Below the pieces are notes generated by a model. That model had not been told where the DNA came from. It saw only the letters and a list, made by a program, of their open reading frames with translations, and made no database searches. The translations under genes were made by a program, and so were the position numbers. Of a stretch of 36,871 nucleotides of DNA, positions 312 to 9,578 are shown piece after piece; positions within the stretch are counted from its first letter, which is position 1; the number at the start of each line of letters is the position of its first letter. The stretch is from an uncultured Bacilli bacterium (GTDB lineage Bacteria; Bacillota_I; Bacilli_A; RF39; UBA660): positions 1 to 36,871 of the forward strand of contig CASRZA010000004.1 in NCBI GenBank assembly GCA_949439935.1, given 5' to 3'.

Positions 312-1595
312 ATGAAAAAACTAAAGATTATAGCGATCGTCTTTACGATGATGTTCGTTCATTTACTAAATGTAGATGCAGCTTCATTTGGAATGACGTC
401 TTCCAAAAACCAAGTTTCACCGAATGGAACTTTTACAGTTAAAGTAGGTGGAGAATGTATAGGAAGAGTAGACTTAAAAGTGAGCAACGGAAGCCTCTCA
501 TCTTCTAGTATATGGGTAGAACAAGGTTATATAACCGTAACAGTCACGGCAGGGGCCTCTGGAAACGTGACAGTCACAGCGACACCAGTAACAGGTTTTT
601 CTGATCCCGATGCAAATTTATACAACCCAGGTTCTAGAAGCGTTACGGTAAAGATCGCTGAACCTACTACAACCAAGCCTGGAACGGTGACGACTACAAA
701 GAAACCTAACAACAATGGTACTACTTTAAAAAAATCCCAAGACAACGATTTAGCCAGTCTAACTGTCAGTGAAGGTACACTGTCACCAGCATTCGATCCT
801 GAAATTACAGAATATACTTTAAACTTACCGAAAGATAATAAAGAACTTACTATTAAGGCTTCTACTAAAGACTCAAAAGCTAAAATAAATGGTGCAGGTA
901 AAGTCACTTTAAAATTCGGTCAAAATGTCATCGAAGTCGTCGTTACAGCAGAAAACGGTTCAAAAAAGACGTATCGTATAAAAGCATATGTCGATGAATC
1001 TCCAGACGTTTTCTTAGACTATCTAGATGGAAAAATAGGAATCGTTAAAAACGCCGAAGGAATTCCTGCTTTAGAAGGATTCGAATCAAAAGAACACGAG
1101 ATCGATGGAAAAAAGATAACTATTTTCACTAAAGATAAGCTGTCTTTAATATATGGTTTAAACGGCGAAGAAAGAAACTATTACCTTTTCGACAAAGAGA
1201 AAAATACGATCATAAATCTCTTGACTCCCGTCACTATAAAAGACCACATCCTCTTCGTGATAGATAAAAAGATCGAAGAAGATTATCTAAAAAAAGAGAC
1301 AGTCGCAAGGGGCGACGAAAAATTCGCATGTTACAAATTCGACCGAAGCGATGCGAACTACTGTCTTTTGACAGCTATAGATAAAGAAGGAAATTACAAA
1401 GAATATCTGTACGAGACTACAGAAGAAACGTTCCAACTATATCCAAAATTCTTACTCGATTATAGTGGTGATGAAAAATCCAAAAATGATATTATATTAT
1501 ACGTTCTAGGCGGTCTTCTAGGTGTATCTTTCATCGTTATTATAGTTATGGTATCGAATACGAAAAAGGGGAACAAAAATGAAAAAAATAAATAA
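312..1595 (+). CDS. Membrane-anchored cadherin-like/Ig-like surface protein
   Basis: Predicted exported protein of 427 aa. Residues 1-24 are a signal peptide ending near VDA-A. Residues 25-115 are a beta-rich Ig/cohesin-like domain (SPNGTFTVKVGG near its start). Residues 116-145 form a Thr/Pro/Lys-rich linker, and about 147-228 match the cadherin-like beta-sandwich pattern (LASLTVSEGTLSPAFDPEITEYTL, ending in ENGSKKTYRI). A unique 170-residue domain follows, then a C-terminal membrane helix (about 395-416) with a short basic tail. It would sit in the membrane with its domains outside. The next gene, a dockerin-bearing protease, overlaps its end by 17 nt, so they are co-translated. The N-terminal domain could be a dockerin partner, but that is inference; no cohesin signature is certain. 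Start chosen for its AAGGAG site. Confidence 0.8.
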   Translation: MKKLKIIAIVFTMMFVHLLNVDAASFGMTSSKNQVSPNGTFTVKVGGECIGRVDLKVSNGSLSSSSIWVEQGYITVTVTAGASGNVTVTATPVTGFSDPDANLYNPGSRSVTVKIAEPTTTKPGTVTTTKKPNNNGTTLKKSQDNDLASLTVSEGTLSPAFDPEITEYTLNLPKDNKELTIKASTKDSKAKINGAGKVTLKFGQNVIEVVVTAENGSKKTYRIKAYVDESPDVFLDYLDGKIGIVKNAEGIPALEGFESKEHEIDGKKITIFTKDKLSLIYGLNGEERNYYLFDKEKNTIINLLTPVTIKDHILFVIDKKIEEDYLKKETVARGDEKFACYKFDRSDANYCLLTAIDKEGNYKEYLYETTEETFQLYPKFLLDYSGDEKSKNDIILYVLGGLLGVSFIVIIVMVSNTKKGNKNEKNK

Positions 1596-4464
1596 GATTT
1601 TAACTTTAATTTTTGCTCTTTCCTTATTCTTCATACCGAGTTCGAGCTTTCAAGACCCACGAATAATCGATACGGCCATTTCGCATAAAGAATCCTTAAA
1701 CCAATTTAGGACAGCAGAAAAGAGAAATATAGAGAACATCGCGATATTTATCAGTTTCGATGGAGATGCGACAAAAGTACCACATCCGATCGACGATGAA
1801 CAGAGTATCAAAAATGCCGAAACGATCTTTAATTCGGACGACCTGTTCGACATGGTCGGACCAAATGGAATCGTCAAGGTGCCTTCTTTCAAAAAATATT
1901 ATGAAAAGCAAAGTTATGGTGCACTTTCGATCTCGACCAGTTTTCTTCCTAAAAAAGATGGCAAAGTAGTATCTTTCCAAGATCCTAATCCGATCGGTTA
2001 TTATCTAAAATATTCGACTGGCAATACTATAGGATACAGGGATAATGCCGAACTGTTAAAAAGAGAAACCGAACTAGTTGAGAACGCACTTGCTCATATC
2101 TCAAGCGAGATAACAAACCTAAACTTTACAGCAGACGACTTGGATACCGATAAAAACGGGTATATAGATGCCATTACTCTCATAGTAGAGACACAGAAAA
2201 ATATGCCTACCACTATATCGTGGAACGATCTTTTGTGGTCACACATGAGAGATAACGACGGTATACAGTCTTCACTGTTGGGCAAAAAAGTAAGATCATA
2301 TACTTTACTTCAAGCGTCCGATTATACCGAAGCCGCGGGATTGTTCTCTTTAAACAGAGGAACCTATGGAACTTTAGTACACGAATTTGGACATTCTTTG
2401 GGATATAAAGATCTCTATCGATATGGAAGTTCTACTTCAAAACCCGTAGGATTCTATGATATCATGGGTAGCTCGATCGGTTCTAATCCCCAAGATTTCC
2501 TGACATACTTCATAAGTGAATACGATGCTTCCACCGCGTGGCATACACCGATTCCGTCTATCGATAAAACGACTGAAAATATAACTTTATACAAACCGAA
2601 ATTTATCGATAAAGACGAGAAAAGAGCACTAAAACTGTTGATAGATGGTACTCCAGAACAATTCTTTGTAGTAGAATACTACGAAAAAAGAGATACCTTC
2701 AATACTTATACTGCCGACCAAAGTGGAATAATAATCTACAGAGTCAACGAAGATAATAAATACTTAGGAAGTTCAGATGACAGCAATGACGGTAAATATG
2801 ATCACATATATGTGTTTAGACCGGGTGAGACTAGTTTAGGAGCCGGACAAGGTAATTTGACACAAGCTACCTTGAATATGAATAGGCCTACGTTCGGTAA
2901 AGATTTAAACCTCGCAGACAAAACTTTCGACGGCGAAACGCTTTTCTTATCTAATGGATCAAATACTGGTATAAAGATAAATGTGACCGCTGAGACATCT
3001 GAATCGATCACTTTCACGGTTACATATCCATCACACGATGGGAGTGGAACCCAAAGCGACCCTTACTTAATCGGCGATGTCGACACTTTTGTTTATCTCA
3101 TGGGACTTAACACGAAGAATAAATTTTACAAATTGACATCTGACCTAGATTTTAAAGATGTCAAAAATTACCCCTTAATCGACTTTGAAGGCTCTTTAGA
3201 TGGAGATGGAAAAACTTTAAAAAATATCTCTTCCACTGACTCTGGAATATTCGACAATTTAGGAAATTTCGGTGCACATTCGACTATAGAGAATCTGAAC
3301 ATAGAGAATCTAACCGCCTATACAAAGGGCGGAAATCACTTAGGAGCTTTGGCAAATTATGCAAGTAATGTTACGATTAAAAACGTCCACATAAAAAACG
3401 GAACTGTTACGAATGAAGGAAACTCTATTAACTCGATCGTGTCGACAGGCGGTTTCATAGGAAGTGCAGACAACACTGTCGTAATCGAAGATTCTTCGAC
3501 AAAGATACATGTCAGTGCGAACCAGACAGTCGGAGGATTCTTAGGGATCAACATGGGCGCTAAAATAAAAGATTGCTTTGCCCAAGGATCTATAGAAAGC
3601 AAATTGAGAAAGGGTGGCTTTATAGGCTTACAAGCTATAACATCATCACCTTATATAGCGCCAGAAAACGCCTTCTTTGATTCTAGTGAAGATGAAAATT
3701 TAAAAGCAGTTGGTGGTTATGCACAAAACATGCACGATCTATCCATTTTAGATGAAAATTCGTTATCTAAAAACATAACAGCTATTTCACTTGGTAAGAA
3801 TCTCACAATTAAAGAAAATTCACATGCCAATGTTCCAATAAAAACGACTCCTAATAAAAACGTCACTTATGATGTCACGATAGAAAATAAAGACGTCGCA
3901 AGCTATCAAAATAAATTGTTACTGGGACTCAAAACAGGAACTACAAAAGTTTACATCGACGTTTTAGTAGGCAAAGGTCGCATGCGTCTAGAGACAAATA
4001 TAGTCGTCGAAAGAGGAGATGGATCTTTAAGTGAAAATGAATTTCTCGTTCTGTTAGGATTACACAAGAAAAATGACTTTGTCGTCGGATTCAATTTAAA
4101 CACGCCGATAAATGACATAAAGGACAAAATCTCCAATATAACAGGTACATCTTTAAAAAGCTTCACCGATTCGACAGGAACAGAACTGCAAGGCGGTATA
4201 ATCAGCACGGGTATGGTCTTCACGGTTACTATAGATAATACTGATTATACATATACGATCGTAATCAAAGGAGATGTAAATGGAGATGGTCTCATATATG
4301 CGACAGACTATGTCAAAATTAAAAATTACATCATGAACAAAGGCACTTTGACAGGCCCTTATGCGTTTGCTGCAGACATAGACGGCGACGGAAAAATATA
4401 TGCGACAGATTACGTCCAGATCAAAAATCACATCATGGGTAAAAAACCTATAGAACAAAAATAA
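1579..4464 (+). CDS. Secreted M6-family metalloprotease with C-terminal dockerin
   Basis: A 961-aa exported zinc protease of the immune-inhibitor-A-like M6 family. Residues 1-23 are a signal peptide. The catalytic domain spans roughly 40-400 and carries HEFGHSLGYKD at 268-278, a HExxHxxGxxD zinc site. Residues about 480-700 are repetitive and GLUG/beta-helix-like (GGFIG, GGFLG), a likely surface adhesion region. Ig-like stretches follow, and the last 65 residues are a type I dockerin with two calcium loops (GDVNGDG and ADIDGDG), each followed by YATDYVxIKNxIM. The family degrades extracellular proteins; dockerins bind cohesins on scaffolds or the cell surface. It overlaps the anchored upstream protein and has an AAAAAGGGG ribosome site inside it. 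No cohesin gene is obvious in the window. Confidence 0.9.
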   Translation: MKKINKILTLIFALSLFFIPSSSFQDPRIIDTAISHKESLNQFRTAEKRNIENIAIFISFDGDATKVPHPIDDEQSIKNAETIFNSDDLFDMVGPNGIVKVPSFKKYYEKQSYGALSISTSFLPKKDGKVVSFQDPNPIGYYLKYSTGNTIGYRDNAELLKRETELVENALAHISSEITNLNFTADDLDTDKNGYIDAITLIVETQKNMPTTISWNDLLWSHMRDNDGIQSSLLGKKVRSYTLLQASDYTEAAGLFSLNRGTYGTLVHEFGHSLGYKDLYRYGSSTSKPVGFYDIMGSSIGSNPQDFLTYFISEYDASTAWHTPIPSIDKTTENITLYKPKFIDKDEKRALKLLIDGTPEQFFVVEYYEKRDTFNTYTADQSGIIIYRVNEDNKYLGSSDDSNDGKYDHIYVFRPGETSLGAGQGNLTQATLNMNRPTFGKDLNLADKTFDGETLFLSNGSNTGIKINVTAETSESITFTVTYPSHDGSGTQSDPYLIGDVDTFVYLMGLNTKNKFYKLTSDLDFKDVKNYPLIDFEGSLDGDGKTLKNISSTDSGIFDNLGNFGAHSTIENLNIENLTAYTKGGNHLGALANYASNVTIKNVHIKNGTVTNEGNSINSIVSTGGFIGSADNTVVIEDSSTKIHVSANQTVGGFLGINMGAKIKDCFAQGSIESKLRKGGFIGLQAITSSPYIAPENAFFDSSEDENLKAVGGYAQNMHDLSILDENSLSKNITAISLGKNLTIKENSHANVPIKTTPNKNVTYDVTIENKDVASYQNKLLLGLKTGTTKVYIDVLVGKGRMRLETNIVVERGDGSLSENEFLVLLGLHKKNDFVVGFNLNTPINDIKDKISNITGTSLKSFTDSTGTELQGGIISTGMVFTVTIDNTDYTYTIVIKGDVNGDGLIYATDYVKIKNYIMNKGTLTGPYAFAADIDGDGKIYATDYVQIKNHIMGKKPIEQK

Positions 4465-4470
4465 AAATCT

Positions 4471-4503
4471 AAAATTCTAATTTAAACAGTTAGAATTTTT
4501 ATT
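4471..4503 (+). terminator. Rho-independent terminator after the dockerin protease
   Basis: AAAATTCTAA (4471-4480) pairs with TTAGAATTTT (4490-4499) around a 9-nt loop and runs into a T-rich stretch, 7 nt after the stop codon. Confidence 0.75.
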
Positions 4504-4511
4504 TATATAAA

Positions 4512-4540
4512 TTGAATAGACTTCTGATCCGTGATATAAT
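4512..4540 (+). promoter_or_regulatory. Promoter of the nuclease/helicase/RT operon
   Basis: TTGAAT (4512-4517), a 17-nt spacer and TATAAT (4535-4540) preceded by TGA as an extended -10. It lies 22 nt before the first gene of the operon, whose ribosome site is AGAGGTG (4551-4557). It is the only convincing promoter I see for the four genes to 8399. Confidence 0.75.
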
Positions 4541-4562
4541 TTTTTTATAAAGAGGTGACAAA

Positions 4563-5786
4563 ATGTTCAAAGAGTTTTTCCAATACGACGAAAATATTAA
4601 CTATTTGAAAAAATACTATGATCTCGACAATTCTTTGAAAAGATATGGGATCGAACGTATGGAAATTAAACACAGTAATTTTCTGAGATGGGCTTTAAGT
4701 CCAAATAACAGCAAAAGCTTAGGCACATTCTCATTGAAATGGTTCATAAAGTTGATCCAAACAAAACTTAGTGCTAATAGACGATTAAAAAAAATAGACC
4801 TCGACCAGTCCTGTCTCGAGGAAATAGATATCTTACGAGAGAAAAAGAACATTGATCTCTTAATAACTTTCAAAATAGGTTCCGAATGCTTTTCTATAGT
4901 CATCGAAAATAAAATATTTGCCAATATTCATGGAAAGCAACTTTCAGCCTACAAAGAAAAAATAGGAACAATATATAAAGAGAAAGGATTAACGTTCGAT
5001 GAAGAACTCGTAGAATACATTTTTCTCTATACAGAGTTTAAAGAAGATGCTAACGACGAAATAGAAAAAGCCAAACACGAGGGTTATATACCACTAACAT
5101 ATCAAGAACTTTATGAAAGTGTCCTAAGCAAAATGGCAGAATATTCGTTAGATTATACATTTACGATTAACATATTAGATTACATTCATGGTCTAGCCAG
5201 CTACATAGTCGATGGTTATGGAACTATGATTACAACAAAACAAGATGCAGAGTGCCTTGAAAGAATATTTAAAAAAAATGAAATGAAAGATTTAATTATC
5301 TCTTTGAGAGATTCATCTACAGAGGCTTACAATTTTTACAGTGACCCAAAGAACAAAGCATTTATAACATTATGTTTTATAAAATATACAAGTTTACTTA
5401 ATAAAAAAGTACAACTTGATGAAAATGAATCTGAAATCAAAAAACATTTGAATGCTATCTTAAACAAACAAAGATATATGCTCACTGTGGAAAACAAAAC
5501 AGAGAATTTCAGGAGTATAAGAAAAATGCTCCTGTACATAATAATTGATTATTTTTATAAAGAGAAAAATTACTCGGTAGAAGATATAGAAAAAAGATTA
5601 AATTCTCTTTTTCCTTGGAAATTGATAATCTCAACCGATGAAGAAATTCAAAAATACAAATACTGGTATGAAAAGGTCATGATAAGTGAAAAAGAATATT
5701 ACGTCTTGACTAACTGGGCACCACAAGACTATGATGATTTCAAAGACACTATGAATTCTGCTAATTTAGGATTTAAAGTTGAATAG
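4563..5786 (+). CDS. PD-(D/E)XK nuclease-superfamily protein (PDDEXK_4-like)
   Basis: A 407-aa protein resembling the PDDEXK_4 nuclease group common in defence islands. It shows the N-terminal HSNFLRWALSPN motif (37-48), then a core of NIDLL (Asp98), the acidic/Lys strand VIENKIFA (Glu115, Lys117) and KQLSAY (125-130). This is the usual D-ExK-QxxxY order of the family, so the active site looks complete. The C-terminal 200 residues are helical and unassigned. No signal peptide or membrane segment is present, so it should act on DNA in the cytoplasm. It opens an operon with a second nuclease-fold protein (14-nt gap), a DnaB-like helicase and a retron-type RT. A role as effector in phage defence is inference from context. 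Confidence 0.8.
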   Translation: MFKEFFQYDENINYLKKYYDLDNSLKRYGIERMEIKHSNFLRWALSPNNSKSLGTFSLKWFIKLIQTKLSANRRLKKIDLDQSCLEEIDILREKKNIDLLITFKIGSECFSIVIENKIFANIHGKQLSAYKEKIGTIYKEKGLTFDEELVEYIFLYTEFKEDANDEIEKAKHEGYIPLTYQELYESVLSKMAEYSLDYTFTINILDYIHGLASYIVDGYGTMITTKQDAECLERIFKKNEMKDLIISLRDSSTEAYNFYSDPKNKAFITLCFIKYTSLLNKKVQLDENESEIKKHLNAILNKQRYMLTVENKTENFRSIRKMLLYIIIDYFYKEKNYSVEDIEKRLNSLFPWKLIISTDEEIQKYKYWYEKVMISEKEYYVLTNWAPQDYDDFKDTMNSANLGFKVE

Positions 5787-5800
5787 TAAAAGAGGATAAC

Positions 5801-6436
5801 ATGAAAGAGCAAGATTTAGAGAATATACTCGAAACATTAAGACAGAAACGCCCAGTTTTTGTTTCAGAAGCAGATTTTCAATTCGCCTTAGCGTGGTCGA
5901 TACAATCGAAATTCAAAAATGCAGAGATAAGATTAGAATATCCACCAGAATACGATCCGAACGTTCACATCGATATCCTAGTAAAAATAGGGGTTGATTG
6001 GTATCCGATAGAATTAAAATACAAAACGAGAAAATGCGAAAAGGAAATCGACGATGAAACTTACTTTTTAAAAGAGCACGGCGCGACAGATGTGAACTGT
6101 TACAGGTACTTAAAAGACATCGAAAGGATACAGAGATTCAAAAAAGTACCTCAATTCAAAAGAGGTTTTACCATATTTTTGACGAATGATTTGAGATATA
6201 CTGATAGTCCAAAAAAGGAAGACTCTATTTATAAAGACTTTTCTCTAAAAGAAGGTTTAATAAAAGAGGGCGTTCTCGCTTGGGATAAACGAGCTAGCAA
6301 AGGCACCATGAAGGGCTGTGAGAAACCTTTAACAATGGATTCTAAATACTCGGTTTACTGGAAGATGTACAGTCAGCTCGATGACAGCAAAACTGGAACG
6401 TTCAAGTATTTAATTAACACTATAGAAAAGGAGTAA
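5801..6436 (+). CDS. Second PD-(D/E)XK nuclease-like protein
   Basis: A 211-aa cytoplasmic protein. The core NVHIDILVKIGVDWYPIELKYKT gives Asp58 and Glu71-x-Lys73 on adjacent strands, the D...ExK layout of PD-(D/E)XK enzymes. SEADFQFAL (22-30) supplies the helix and acidic residue typical of the fold's start. It differs clearly in length and motif from the upstream 407-aa nuclease, so it is not a recent duplicate. It lies 14 nt after that gene and 6 nt before the helicase gene, indicating one mRNA. I cannot name a precise family. Substrate and activity are unknown, and a degenerate structural role is possible. Confidence 0.7.
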   Translation: MKEQDLENILETLRQKRPVFVSEADFQFALAWSIQSKFKNAEIRLEYPPEYDPNVHIDILVKIGVDWYPIELKYKTRKCEKEIDDETYFLKEHGATDVNCYRYLKDIERIQRFKKVPQFKRGFTIFLTNDLRYTDSPKKEDSIYKDFSLKEGLIKEGVLAWDKRASKGTMKGCEKPLTMDSKYSVYWKMYSQLDDSKTGTFKYLINTIEKE

Positions 6437-6442
6437 TTAAAA

Positions 6443-7237
6443 ATGACTATACTAAAAAAAATAAGCGAAATTCAAATGACTGAAGAGATGAACAAGTCAT
6501 ATAAACTCGGTTTCGATCAGCTAGATACACTTGTAGGCAAAGTAAAAAGTGGGACGATAATTACTATAGGTGCAAGACCAGCGATGGGGAAATCCACATT
6601 TCTAAATCGCATAGCTTTGAATCTTTTATCTGAGTATAATGAGCCTATCTTATACGTTGGACTCGAAACCAATAAAGAAAGATTAGCGTTACAGCTCGCA
6701 TGTTTGGCAAAAGATGTTTCATTTAGAGATGTCTTTAATGACGATGAAAAATCAAAAAAGATTTTAGATGAATTTAAAGAAAAGAATTACGAACTGTTCA
6801 TTACAGATGATTGTATAAATATCGACGACCTTGAAAGTTTATTAAAAGAAAATAGACAGATAAGATTTCTCTTTATTGATTATATTCAGCTACTCGGAGA
6901 TGACAATGCAAATAATAGCATAGAACGAGTAGGTAATGTACTTAATAAAATTAAAAAACTAGCTAATGAATATAATCTCGTCGTCATCCTGCTTTCTCAA
7001 CTGTCGAGAAATGTCGAATATAGATTAGAAAAAAAACCACAGTTGACAGATTTAAAAAGCTGTGGAAACATAGAAAACGTATCTGACATCGTAATATTTC
7101 TCTATAGAGAATCTTATTACTCGAAGGAAGCTAAAAATGATGCGACAGAAATAATCGTTTCCAAAAACAGATATGGTTCAGTTGGCAGTGCCTTTCTCGA
7201 CTATGACAAAATGACTGGTCGCTTCTCAGATTATTGA
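6443..7237 (+). CDS. Stand-alone DnaB-type helicase C-terminal (RecA-like) domain protein
   Basis: A 264-aa P-loop ATPase matching only the C-terminal motor of replicative DnaB helicases. YKLGFDQLDTLVGKVKSG leads to Walker A GARPAMGKST (43-52). Walker B is FLFIDYIQLL, followed by VVILLSQLSRNVEYR, then QLTDLKSCGNIENVSDIVIFLYRESYY and the closing KNRYGS...DYDKMTGRF. Replicative DnaB is about 440-460 aa with an N-terminal helical domain; that domain is wholly absent here. It is thus unlikely to be the chromosomal replication helicase. It sits between two nuclease-fold genes and a retron-type RT in one operon, so I infer an accessory ATPase of that system, perhaps a hexameric loader or sensor. 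The start has AAAAGGAG (6427-6434) upstream. Confidence 0.85.
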   Translation: MTILKKISEIQMTEEMNKSYKLGFDQLDTLVGKVKSGTIITIGARPAMGKSTFLNRIALNLLSEYNEPILYVGLETNKERLALQLACLAKDVSFRDVFNDDEKSKKILDEFKEKNYELFITDDCINIDDLESLLKENRQIRFLFIDYIQLLGDDNANNSIERVGNVLNKIKKLANEYNLVVILLSQLSRNVEYRLEKKPQLTDLKSCGNIENVSDIVIFLYRESYYSKEAKNDATEIIVSKNRYGSVGSAFLDYDKMTGRFSDY

Positions 7238-7376
7238 TAAAAGAAAACGAATATGAATTGCATATCACGGGCGTTTCGCAGTGAATATTAAAATGTTACT
7301 TTATACATATCTAACGATATGTAAACCATTATGAATGGTTGTTTAAATGTTGGAATTCAAAAGGTGGTAGTCAAAA
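7238..7376 (+). ncRNA. Candidate retron-type structured RNA upstream of the RT
   Basis: This 139-nt gap holds three consecutive stem-loops: 7262-7288 (ATAT/CAC/GCG-TTT-CGC/GTG/ATAT with small bulges), 7304-7323 (TACATATC-TAAC-GATATGTA, perfect 8 bp) and 7324-7340 (AACCATT-ATG-AATGGTT, perfect 7 bp). TGAATT (7254-7259) can pair with AATTCA (7354-7359) to close the set. Retron msr-msd RNAs lie just upstream of the RT and carry short 7-10 bp stem-loops within an a1/a2 helix, so position and style fit. However, the closing helix is only 6 bp, no long msd stem is evident and the branching guanosine cannot be assigned. Boundaries are approximate. Confidence 0.45.
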
Positions 7377-8399
7377 ATGAATAGTTATGAAAATCTAGTC
7401 TGTCATATTTTAAATATTAGATATGACACATTGAAAAGAGTCTTAGGTGAACACAATTACAGGACGTTCAAAGTCCCTAAGAAAAGTGGAGGATATAGAA
7501 ATATTTCGGCTCCACACATATGTCTAAAGAACGTTCAAGAGAGTTTAGCGCAGTACATTGATAAGAAATACGAGTTTTTGGATTGTCAATATGGCTTTAT
7601 AAAGAATCGAAGCATCGTAGATAATGCAGTTTTGCATAAGAAGGCCAAATACATACTAAATATCGATTTAAAAAACTTTTTTCCTTCTATTAATTTTGGA
7701 AGAGTTCGGGGAATTTTTATGGCAAAGCCGTTTAATTTTCCTAAAGAGGTTGCAACCATATTAGCAAAAATAAGCTGTTATCACAACGAACTTCCACAGG
7801 GATCTCCTTGTTCTCCATCTCTTTCGAATATAGTTTGTTATACATTAGATCAAAAAATGATGAATATGAGTGGTCAATATGGATTTACCTATTCGCGATA
7901 CGCCGATGACATTACTATCTCAAGCGATAGACCTTTTCCAAAAGAGATAGTCACGCGTACGAAAGACAACATCGTCATCGTCGGAAAAAAATTAAGACAT
8001 ATAATCGAAAGTCAAGGATTCATTATCAATGAAGATAAAACAAACTATAGTTGGAACAACGAACGCAAAGAAGTGACTGGACTGATCGTCAACGAAAAAG
8101 TAAATGTCAAAAAGATATATGTAAAACAGTTGAGGGCTCTTCTAAATAATATCGATAAAGAAGGACTTTATTTCACAGCAAAAAAATATTTTAAATGTGA
8201 AAACATCAGCTTAAATGCTTCCCAAAGAAAGAAGTTAATAAAAAAACTTCGAAATATCGTCGAGGGAAGATTAAACTTTTTATCGATGGTTCGAGGCGCG
8301 AACGATTTAGTTTACCAAAAATATTTGGAAAAATATTTGGATATATTGCATAAAGAAAATCTGTATTCACCTAGCTTGAGAAAAAAATTAAAAATTTGA
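7377..8399 (+). CDS. Retron-type reverse transcriptase
   Basis: A 340-aa RNA-directed DNA polymerase of the usual retron RT length (about 300-350). Motifs in order: PKKSGGYRNISAP (34-46); GFIKNRSIVDNAVLH with the retron NAxxH signature (83-87); DLKNFFPS (97-104); LPQGSPCSPSLSN (139-151); catalytic YADD (175-178); GFIINEDKTN (214-223); and the retron VTG signature (233-235). The C-terminus has the thumb-like GRLNFLSMVRG pattern. There is no group II intron maturase or CRISPR Cas1 fusion. Retron RTs make msDNA from an adjacent RNA and work with toxin/effector proteins against phage. The ribosome site is GGTGG (7363-7367). It is the last gene of an operon with two nuclease-fold proteins and a DnaB-like ATPase. 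Confidence 0.92.
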   Translation: MNSYENLVCHILNIRYDTLKRVLGEHNYRTFKVPKKSGGYRNISAPHICLKNVQESLAQYIDKKYEFLDCQYGFIKNRSIVDNAVLHKKAKYILNIDLKNFFPSINFGRVRGIFMAKPFNFPKEVATILAKISCYHNELPQGSPCSPSLSNIVCYTLDQKMMNMSGQYGFTYSRYADDITISSDRPFPKEIVTRTKDNIVIVGKKLRHIIESQGFIINEDKTNYSWNNERKEVTGLIVNEKVNVKKIYVKQLRALLNNIDKEGLYFTAKKYFKCENISLNASQRKKLIKKLRNIVEGRLNFLSMVRGANDLVYQKYLEKYLDILHKENLYSPSLRKKLKI

Positions 8400-8500
8400 C
8401 TACAATCACCAATAAGTGACAAATAATGCTTTTGTTGCTTTTTCTTTTTTAAAAAAAATGGACTTTTCTATGAATGATACATGCAGACTAGGAAGAAAGA

Positions 8501-8529
8501 TTGCCACTTGTCGAATAATGTGATAAAAT
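8501..8529 (+). promoter_or_regulatory. Promoter for the membrane coiled-coil protein
   Basis: TTGCCA (8501-8506), 17-nt spacer, TAAAAT (8524-8529) with TGA immediately before as an extended -10. It is followed by an AGGAGGT ribosome site (8552-8558). No clear terminator for the RT operon is seen between 8400 and 8500, only T-rich and A-rich runs. Confidence 0.7.
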
Positions 8530-8564
8530 CAAAGTGTTAAAACGATAACTCAGGAGGTTTAAAA

Positions 8565-9578
8565 ATGACAAAGAAAGAAACTACAACTAAAACAAAAACG
8601 GAAAAGATAAAAGAAGAAGCTCTCGACATCGAGAATATTGAAAAAGAGATTACACTCAGCCTACAAAAGACAGCTAAGGAATTACAGGAAGATCTCGTCA
8701 CAAAGATCGACGAACAGATAGAATATAGAATTGATAAAAGACTCAAAGAGGAAGAGAAGAAAATGACTAAAAGACAGACCTTTAAAATAGTCAGACTGAA
8801 CATAATAATACTCATACTTCTCGTGGTCATAGGATACCTCGTTTACTGTCTGTTCGAAGTAGACTATTTTAAGTTTAGGCAAGTTACAATCGTGCCACCA
8901 AAGACAGATGTAAATAATAATAGGGAAGACGAAACACAGAATGATGATTCGACGACAGATAAATCTAAAGAAGAAGAAAAACTCGAAAAAGAGAGACTGA
9001 TGAAAGAAAAAGCCTTGAAAGAATACAGATATCTCGTAGAAAATCTACAGATAGAAGACGCTTCGATCAAAGAACTATATGAAGATAATACAACGCCTTC
9101 ATCTATGTCTAATGAATTAAAACTAAAAATCGCCTATAAAAATCTAAAAGATGCTGATATGACAAAAGAAGATGGAATAACTTCTTTTACAAAAGAGGCG
9201 TTACTCGATTCTGCAAAAAAAATCTTTGGCGAAGAAATAACTTTAAAAAATGAAACTTTCATTTACAATAAATCGCGCTTTATGTTTTATAACGATGCTT
9301 ATGTAGGATTTAAAGAAGAAGAGGAAAAATGCGATTATGTATATGAAATAATAGATGTAGATGTCGCCAAAAAAGACACATTAGAATTCAAGGTGCTGAT
9401 TGCCAAAACGAATTATCAAGGAAGTTTACTCGATTTTAAAGACCAAATCATAGATAACGAATACAAAAAAGATGGCTTATTATCATATAAAGAAAAACTG
9501 AATACTTATGTTTTCGAATTCAAAAGCGAAGGCGACAGGTACACTTTCAAAAGTGTAAAAATAGAAAGGCAAGATTAA
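8565..9578 (+). CDS. Single-pass membrane protein with cytoplasmic coiled coil
   Basis: A 337-aa protein of unrecognised family. Residues 1-75 are highly charged and heptad-like (KIKEEALDIENIEKEITLSLQ...), a probable cytoplasmic coiled coil. One membrane helix spans about 77-98 (LNIIILILLVVIGYLVYCLF). Residues 110-150 are an acidic low-complexity linker, and 150-337 a soluble, probably extracellular domain rich in Lys/Glu/Tyr. There is no signal peptidase site, so orientation N-in/C-out is assumed. It has a strong AGGAGGT ribosome site and its own promoter, and a TfoX-N gene follows after 2 nt. The linker-plus-beta C-terminal style recalls the other membrane-anchored proteins here (19156, 27813), but I see no clear homology. 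Function unknown. Confidence 0.75.
   Translation: MTKKETTTKTKTEKIKEEALDIENIEKEITLSLQKTAKELQEDLVTKIDEQIEYRIDKRLKEEEKKMTKRQTFKIVRLNIIILILLVVIGYLVYCLFEVDYFKFRQVTIVPPKTDVNNNREDETQNDDSTTDKSKEEEKLEKERLMKEKALKEYRYLVENLQIEDASIKELYEDNTTPSSMSNELKLKIAYKNLKDADMTKEDGITSFTKEALLDSAKKIFGEEITLKNETFIYNKSRFMFYNDAYVGFKEEEEKCDYVYEIIDVDVAKKDTLEFKVLIAKTNYQGSLLDFKDQIIDNEYKKDGLLSYKEKLNTYVFEFKSEGDRYTFKSVKIERQD

Follow-up and report, generated by a model that had tools for sequence, protein, structure and literature searches.

Retrons combine a bacterial reverse transcriptase (RT) with a small RNA and serve as alarms against phages. The effectors of known retrons are mostly nucleases, proteases, TIR, NDT, membrane or DNA-binding proteins, and in type I-A (Ec78) the partners of the RT are an ATPase and an HNH nuclease. 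As is generally understood, the RT and the msDNA hold the effector back until a phage trigger appears. PMC12548924 describes the same restraint and numbers the retron types at 13; sixteen subtypes are given in PMC13405049, with more still under classification. The described RTs closest to the one analysed here belong to a clade comprising types XI (RT and trypsin-like protease) and XII (RT and TIR). In these types the effector is fused to the RT, whereas in the locus reported here the RT is unfused and a separate gene for a DnaB_C-type ATPase precedes the RNA. This locus lies in a stretch of 36,871 nucleotides from an uncultured Bacilli bacterium (contig CASRZA010000004.1), hereafter called the window. 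Our favoured, if by no means assured, reading is that it represents an undescribed retron type in which a standalone DnaB-like ATPase partners an RT and an msr-msd RNA. The association between DnaB_C and RT is strongly supported: we found the pairing of a standalone DnaB_C with an RT in a total of 25 loci from 23 genomes of two phyla.

Organization of the locus

The following features were delineated in the window (evidence in parentheses):
4563-5786, + strand: PDDEXK_4 nuclease, 407 aa (Pfam 1.1e-16; PADLOC PDC-S26 2e-31)
5801-6436, + strand: putative PD-(D/E)XK nuclease, 211 aa (conserved D58...E71-L-K73 motif, weak Foldseek matches)
6443-7237, + strand: standalone DnaB_C-type RecA ATPase, 264 aa (Pfam DnaB_C, AlphaFold2 fold, own clade)
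7254-7359, + strand: putative retron msr-msd RNA (conservation, fold, compensatory changes, 5' motif)
7254-7259, + strand: RNA element a1 (fold)
7265-7284, + strand: msr-like hairpin of the RNA (fold)
7304-7323, + strand: 3' hairpin of the RNA (fold, compensatory changes)
7324-7340, + strand: further 3' hairpin of the RNA (fold, compensatory changes)
7354-7359, + strand: RNA element a2 (fold)
7377-8399, + strand: retron RT, 340 aa, with no fused C-terminal effector (PADLOC, NCBIfam, RT tree)

The reading frame of the ATPase is open from its ATG. Pfam DnaB_C matches residues 22-263 (E-value 4.9e-54), the NCBIfam DnaB model is matched at positions 160-432 of 435 and nowhere earlier, the alignments to PDB sequences are confined to the C-terminal ATPase domain of DnaB, and the AlphaFold2 model (pLDDT 84) finds the DnaB C-terminal domain and the G40P ATPase domain as its best Foldseek templates. 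Because all these matches concern the ATPase domain only, we conclude that the N-terminal collar is absent, i.e. that the N-terminal domain and linker of replicative DnaB are missing from this protein. The catalytic Glu (in LET) and the Arg finger are both retained, and the host possesses a separate full-length DnaB (a 457-aa frame, 32% identical to the window protein). The sequence-only reading had described a DnaB motor domain without its N-terminal domain but with the Walker A, Walker B and C-terminal motifs, next to an RT; all of this is borne out by the four kinds of domain match, by the presence of ARPAMGKS (Walker A), FIDYIQ (Walker B), SQLSR, DLKSCG and SKNRYG, and by the assignment of the neighbouring RT to the retron clade. 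What that reading overlooked in its otherwise accurate description of the neighbourhood is that the 139 bp between the end of the DnaB_C gene and the RT gene hold a conserved structured RNA, so that DnaB_C, RNA and RT are adjacent and co-oriented. A scan of positions 4450-8560 for promoters and terminators returned no more matches than shuffled sequences did.

The RT is recognized by the PADLOC models RT-TIR_XII (4e-115) and RT-Protease_XI (2e-114) as well as by NCBIfam retron models, and it carries the motifs NAVLH, YADD and EVTG, in accord with the NAxxH, YxDD and VTG signature of the retron clade. Its closest solved structure is Ec67/Eco2, and in our RT tree the type XI RTs form the sister group of the window-type RTs (support 97/91). 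The window RT stops soon after the RT domain, at 340 aa, compared with 553-554 aa in the type XI fusions of genomes G022 and G730, and therefore lacks a fused protease or TIR.

The RNA is better conserved than the genes on either side of it: at the DNA level it is 86% and 77% identical to its counterparts in two relatives, whereas the DnaB_C gene reaches 62-67% and the RT gene about 70%. Its predicted fold has the layout expected of a retron ncRNA, with a stem that closes the RNA and then an msr-like hairpin followed by two others; the folding energies are modest (z from -0.9 to -2.1). The comparison covers three distinct sequences, among which two pairs of the hairpin at 7304-7323 are altered on both sides and the hairpin at 7324-7340 shows several more double-sided changes and one broken pair (in G210); the a1/a2 pairing amounts to only about 6 bp. 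Rfam gave no retron RNA match at the gathering threshold, and the matches below it were at chance level. At a tolerance of 3 mismatches, the 5' motif of the RNA is found in six genomes among 386 from the bacterial family and has zero matches in the controls. Four of these six are the genomes with DnaB_C-RT loci, and in the other two (G022 and G730) the motif lies upstream of type XI RT-protease fusions, so that the 5' part of the type XI leader, just upstream of the RT, is homologous to the window RNA. As the motif precedes type XI fusions and the RT is kin to those of type XI, we conclude that the RT and RNA of the window derive from a type XI-like retron. In the viral contigs scanned we found no relatives of the RT or of the leader-RNA motif.

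The model of the 211-aa protein is poor (pLDDT 56), and its Foldseek matches are mostly PD-(D/E)XK enzymes, all with E-values above 0.03. The 407-aa PDDEXK_4 protein falls into one blastp cluster with PDDEXK_4 genes that lie next to several of the DnaB_C-RT loci in the second order described below. Directly after the RT, at 8565-9578, comes a gene for a 337-aa protein that probably contains a transmembrane segment and has no assigned family; it was not seen at that position in the other loci. The same contig encodes, at 1579-4464 of the window, an M6-like peptidase with a type I dockerin, a cellulosome-like protein.

Relatives in two RT lineages

The DnaB_C-RNA-RT unit of the window bacterium recurs in three genomes of the same bacterial family (G162, G210 and G766), with 66-68% identity to the window RT and 47-52% identity to the window DnaB_C. 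The units of G162 and G766 are near-copies even though the genera differ, which suggests horizontal transfer. In both, the unit is flanked by an OB-fold ORF on one side and a PolIII-like ORF on the other; in the related element of G075, which has no RT, these two genes are direct neighbours (the similarity of the flanking genes being weak, with E-values of 0.007 and 1e-12), which indicates that DnaB_C moves together with the RNA and the RT. The G162 and G766 elements (L034 and L153) also carry, around the retron unit, a PolIII-alpha-like protein and a DnaB_C-like protein of 217 aa that is no relative of the retron DnaB_C clade, and L034 has an SSB. The mobile element of G075 (L201) encodes at 1978-3189 (- strand) a 403-aa protein whose DnaB_C-like domain is followed by a stretch resembling, by eye, DnaA domain IV; with its PolIII-alpha-like, OB-fold and second DnaB_C-like ORFs, the element gives the impression of a collection of mimics of replication proteins.

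A narrow, single-protein search of genome contigs gave one match, L003, from a cyanobacterial metagenome-assembled genome (Cyanobacteriota, UBA2855), in which DnaB_C ends 2 bp before a distant RT. Among 232 genomes of this order we found about 26 standalone DnaB_C proteins, nearly all of them ranked above the full-length chromosomal DnaBs. In 21 fetched loci (19 genomes) an RT follows directly 3' of DnaB_C, at a spacing from -41 (overlap) to +62 bp. L238 keeps a fragment of the RT beside DnaB_C, L241 has lost the RT and still has the RNA, and three further members of the DnaB_C clade (L250, L252 and L254) have neither; the RT appears to have been lost in L238, L241 and L250. RTs of this second lineage show the motifs xAxxH and [YF]xDD, with LG replacing VTG. 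Downstream of the RT, the opposite strand encodes a structured RNA (about 120 nt) that follows a TATAAT-like box; 8 of its 13 predicted pairs are changed on both sides. A stretch upstream of DnaB_C was also considered as the RNA and set aside, since conservation there is patchy, whereas almost all of the stretch 3' of the RT is conserved. We found no a1/a2 pairing in the downstream RNA, which is convergent with the RT and thus a candidate template only. Upstream of its TATAAT-like box a near-palindrome, ATGACA...TGTCAT, recurs as a possible operator. WYL regulators and PDC-S26 nucleases occur near the second-lineage loci; the nucleases are divergently transcribed and missing from many of them. 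The island of L240 also contains a II-A-like retron (311-aa ORF and RT, at 2651-4793).

Phylogenetic analysis placed all RT-linked DnaB_C proteins in one clade (support 100/97), which was retained (99/96) after the addition of short phage DnaB proteins, the DnaB_C of a Wolbachia plasmid and Arcobacter plasmid helicases. All DnaBs of chromosomes, phages and plasmids or mobile elements, including other proteins without the N-terminal domain, fall outside. In the tree, 24 of the 29 clade members have an RT beside them and two more have a remnant of the RT or the RNA; in these samples, the family occurs almost only beside retron-type RTs. Sampling was uneven: the search went deep in two orders and took in the remainder of the class or phylum by samples. 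The RTs do not form one group: those of the second lineage make up a separate, distant clade (100/100), at which long branches were flagged in the RT tree. One DnaB_C clade combined with two distant RT clades implies that one effector-like gene serves two RT lineages, either through transfer of the gene or because it was captured twice from a single source. No DnaB_C-RT pair is present among the 215 viral loci listed. In one viral contig (L337) a DnaB of 590 aa and an RT are separated by 2.4 kb, an arrangement that is not of this retron type, and the Wolbachia plasmid pWALBA1 (L394, 2393-4228) encodes a standalone 295-aa DnaB_C directly followed by an Rpn-type nuclease, with no RT and outside the clade. 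Grouping with phage replication modules and a lack of links to RT genes elsewhere had been named as outcomes that would count against the sequence-only reading, and neither was observed: in our trees the window protein stands apart from phage replication helicases, and the link to RTs recurs in G162, G210, G766 and 21 second-lineage loci.

Possible roles of the DnaB-like ATPase

DnaB_C is the only partner protein common to all loci. Being constant beside the RT in both lineages, and by analogy with known retrons, it is the best candidate for the effector, and we regard it as probably the effector partner; we infer both this role and its target, which may be phage forks, ssDNA or msDNA. According to the mechanism that we propose, the RT would copy part of the RNA into msDNA, and RT, RNA and msDNA together would hold the ATPase, which is probably a ring like that of DnaB, in an inactive state. 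Once phage replication perturbs the msDNA, the ring could be released to engage ssDNA or forks without contacting primase, and the resulting halt of replication would lead to abortive infection. More tentatively, the DnaB-derived ring ATPase could be a transferable retron effector whose gene was swapped between two unrelated RT lineages with different RNAs, the msDNA serving as an ssDNA leash that holds the ring away from the replication fork until phage proteins free it; we entertain this as a possibility that is rather doubtful. The members may also differ in how they work. Of 15 aligned second-lineage members, 8 carry another residue in place of the catalytic Glu, and all but one do so in place of the K-N-R Arg. 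Taking these residues to have the roles established for DnaB/G40P, the full catalytic set of the window protein suggests possible translocation, whereas the many second-lineage members lacking Glu and Arg may be ATP-gated clamps rather than helicases.

Such degenerate catalytic residues in many members would equally fit a switch, that is, an ATPase adaptor like that of type I-A (Ec78, PtuA-like), which couples the state of the msDNA to a separate nuclease and is not itself the toxin. Candidate nucleases are close at hand: the 211-aa ORF ends 6 bp before the start of DnaB_C, a related nuclease is encoded upstream in G162 and G766, and PDC-S26 nucleases adjoin several second-lineage loci. Yet no nuclease is common to all loci; the 211-aa protein occurs in three of the four window-type loci and the G210 contig has no nuclease gene, the many second-lineage loci without a nuclease add to this, and where one is present there it is divergently transcribed. 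Moreover, the family of the 211-aa protein (11 of 276 genomes) is mostly found without a window-type retron, and this wide RT-less distribution weakens the case for the nuclease as a fixed part of the system. We consider the adaptor role rather unlikely. The 211-aa nuclease is probably cargo or an accessory of the retron, a looser companion than the RT and the RNA, and the PDDEXK_4 protein is an uncertain candidate, a neighbour that might have a role. Of the earlier proposal that a replication-type motor lying between nuclease and RT genes was captured for defence, the recurrent tie of the motor to a retron RT has thus held up, while the nuclease setting has lost weight.

It is not obvious how a DnaB-like ATPase would be toxic; the protein could equally be an accessory of the RT that unwinds or threads the RNA-DNA hybrid during msDNA production, the effector being encoded elsewhere. 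DnaB-type motors act on single strands, and the tight gene order with the RT, with starts and stops often overlapping, would suit such a motor. To our knowledge, however, the known retron RTs need no helicase partner to make msDNA, no other protein common to all loci is available as the effector, and the loss of the catalytic Glu or Arg in many members argues against processive unwinding, all of which makes the accessory role quite unlikely in our opinion. Termination of msDNA synthesis relies on host RNase H1, as stated in PMC8989520. We regard it as very improbable that DnaB_C is a dominant-negative decoy, mixing into and poisoning the hexamers of host or phage DnaB: the RecA core and ring motifs are conserved as this would demand, but 32% identity to the host DnaB is presumably too distant for ready mixing. 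Finally, a DnaB_C of plasmid or phage replication might merely happen to lie beside an RT, given that the G162 and G766 elements carry an SSB, a PolIII-like gene and another DnaB_C-like gene and that DnaBs without the N-terminal domain exist in phages (PHROG 243) and in a Wolbachia plasmid. Those proteins are left outside the distinct RT-linked clade, though, the RT is directly downstream in 21 loci, the pair is not among the 215 viral loci listed, and a full-length DnaB lies near the pair in L240. A phage replication module was discarded on the same tree and viral-locus evidence, and we hold a chance neighbourhood to be extremely improbable.

If the reading of DnaB_C as the retron effector is correct, a ring ATPase constant to two unrelated retron lineages would constitute a new effector class, and the case would show the movement of an effector between RT lineages. 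It would also make testable whether retrons act directly on replication forks, in a compact three-part system (DnaB_C, RNA and RT) available for study in bacteria of two phyla.

Comparison with described systems

A PADLOC 2.0.0 scan, which covered DnaB_C, the RT and a few neighbours, matched 18 of 18 DnaB_C members only to mad8 and to models at chance level, with no retron effector model among the matches. The similarity to the mad8 ATPase of MADS is weak and partial (best 6e-11), as expected from the shared RecA core. The literature searched contains no retron with a DnaB; relative to the types of Mestre et al. 2020, the novelty is judged from the PADLOC models and from general background. 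With no PADLOC effector model and no literature report, we file the locus as an undescribed retron type in which the effector role of DnaB_C is presumed.

The best PADLOC model for the second-lineage RTs is that of type II-A (Eco1/Ec86, with an NDT effector), with a score of about 2e-53 that is far below that of the II-A-like RT in the same island (L240, 4e-94). In type II-A it is NDT that lies by the RT, whereas in the second lineage it is DnaB_C, and the RNA is downstream and convergent. PHROG 243, a 273-position profile of phage DnaBs without the N-terminal domain, matches the window protein over its full length (110 bits) and is similar in size; the sampled members of this and other such phage or plasmid groups have no adjacent RT, and the short viral and Wolbachia sequences lie outside the clade. 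With replicative DnaB and phage G40P the window protein shares the fold and motifs of the ATPase domain, but it lacks their N-terminal domain and belongs to a separate clade. No type I-A effector model of PADLOC matches DnaB_C of the window clade. The idea of an ATPase partner, perhaps accompanied by a nuclease, is nevertheless common to type I-A and to the system described here, in which the ATPase is of the DnaB/RecA type.
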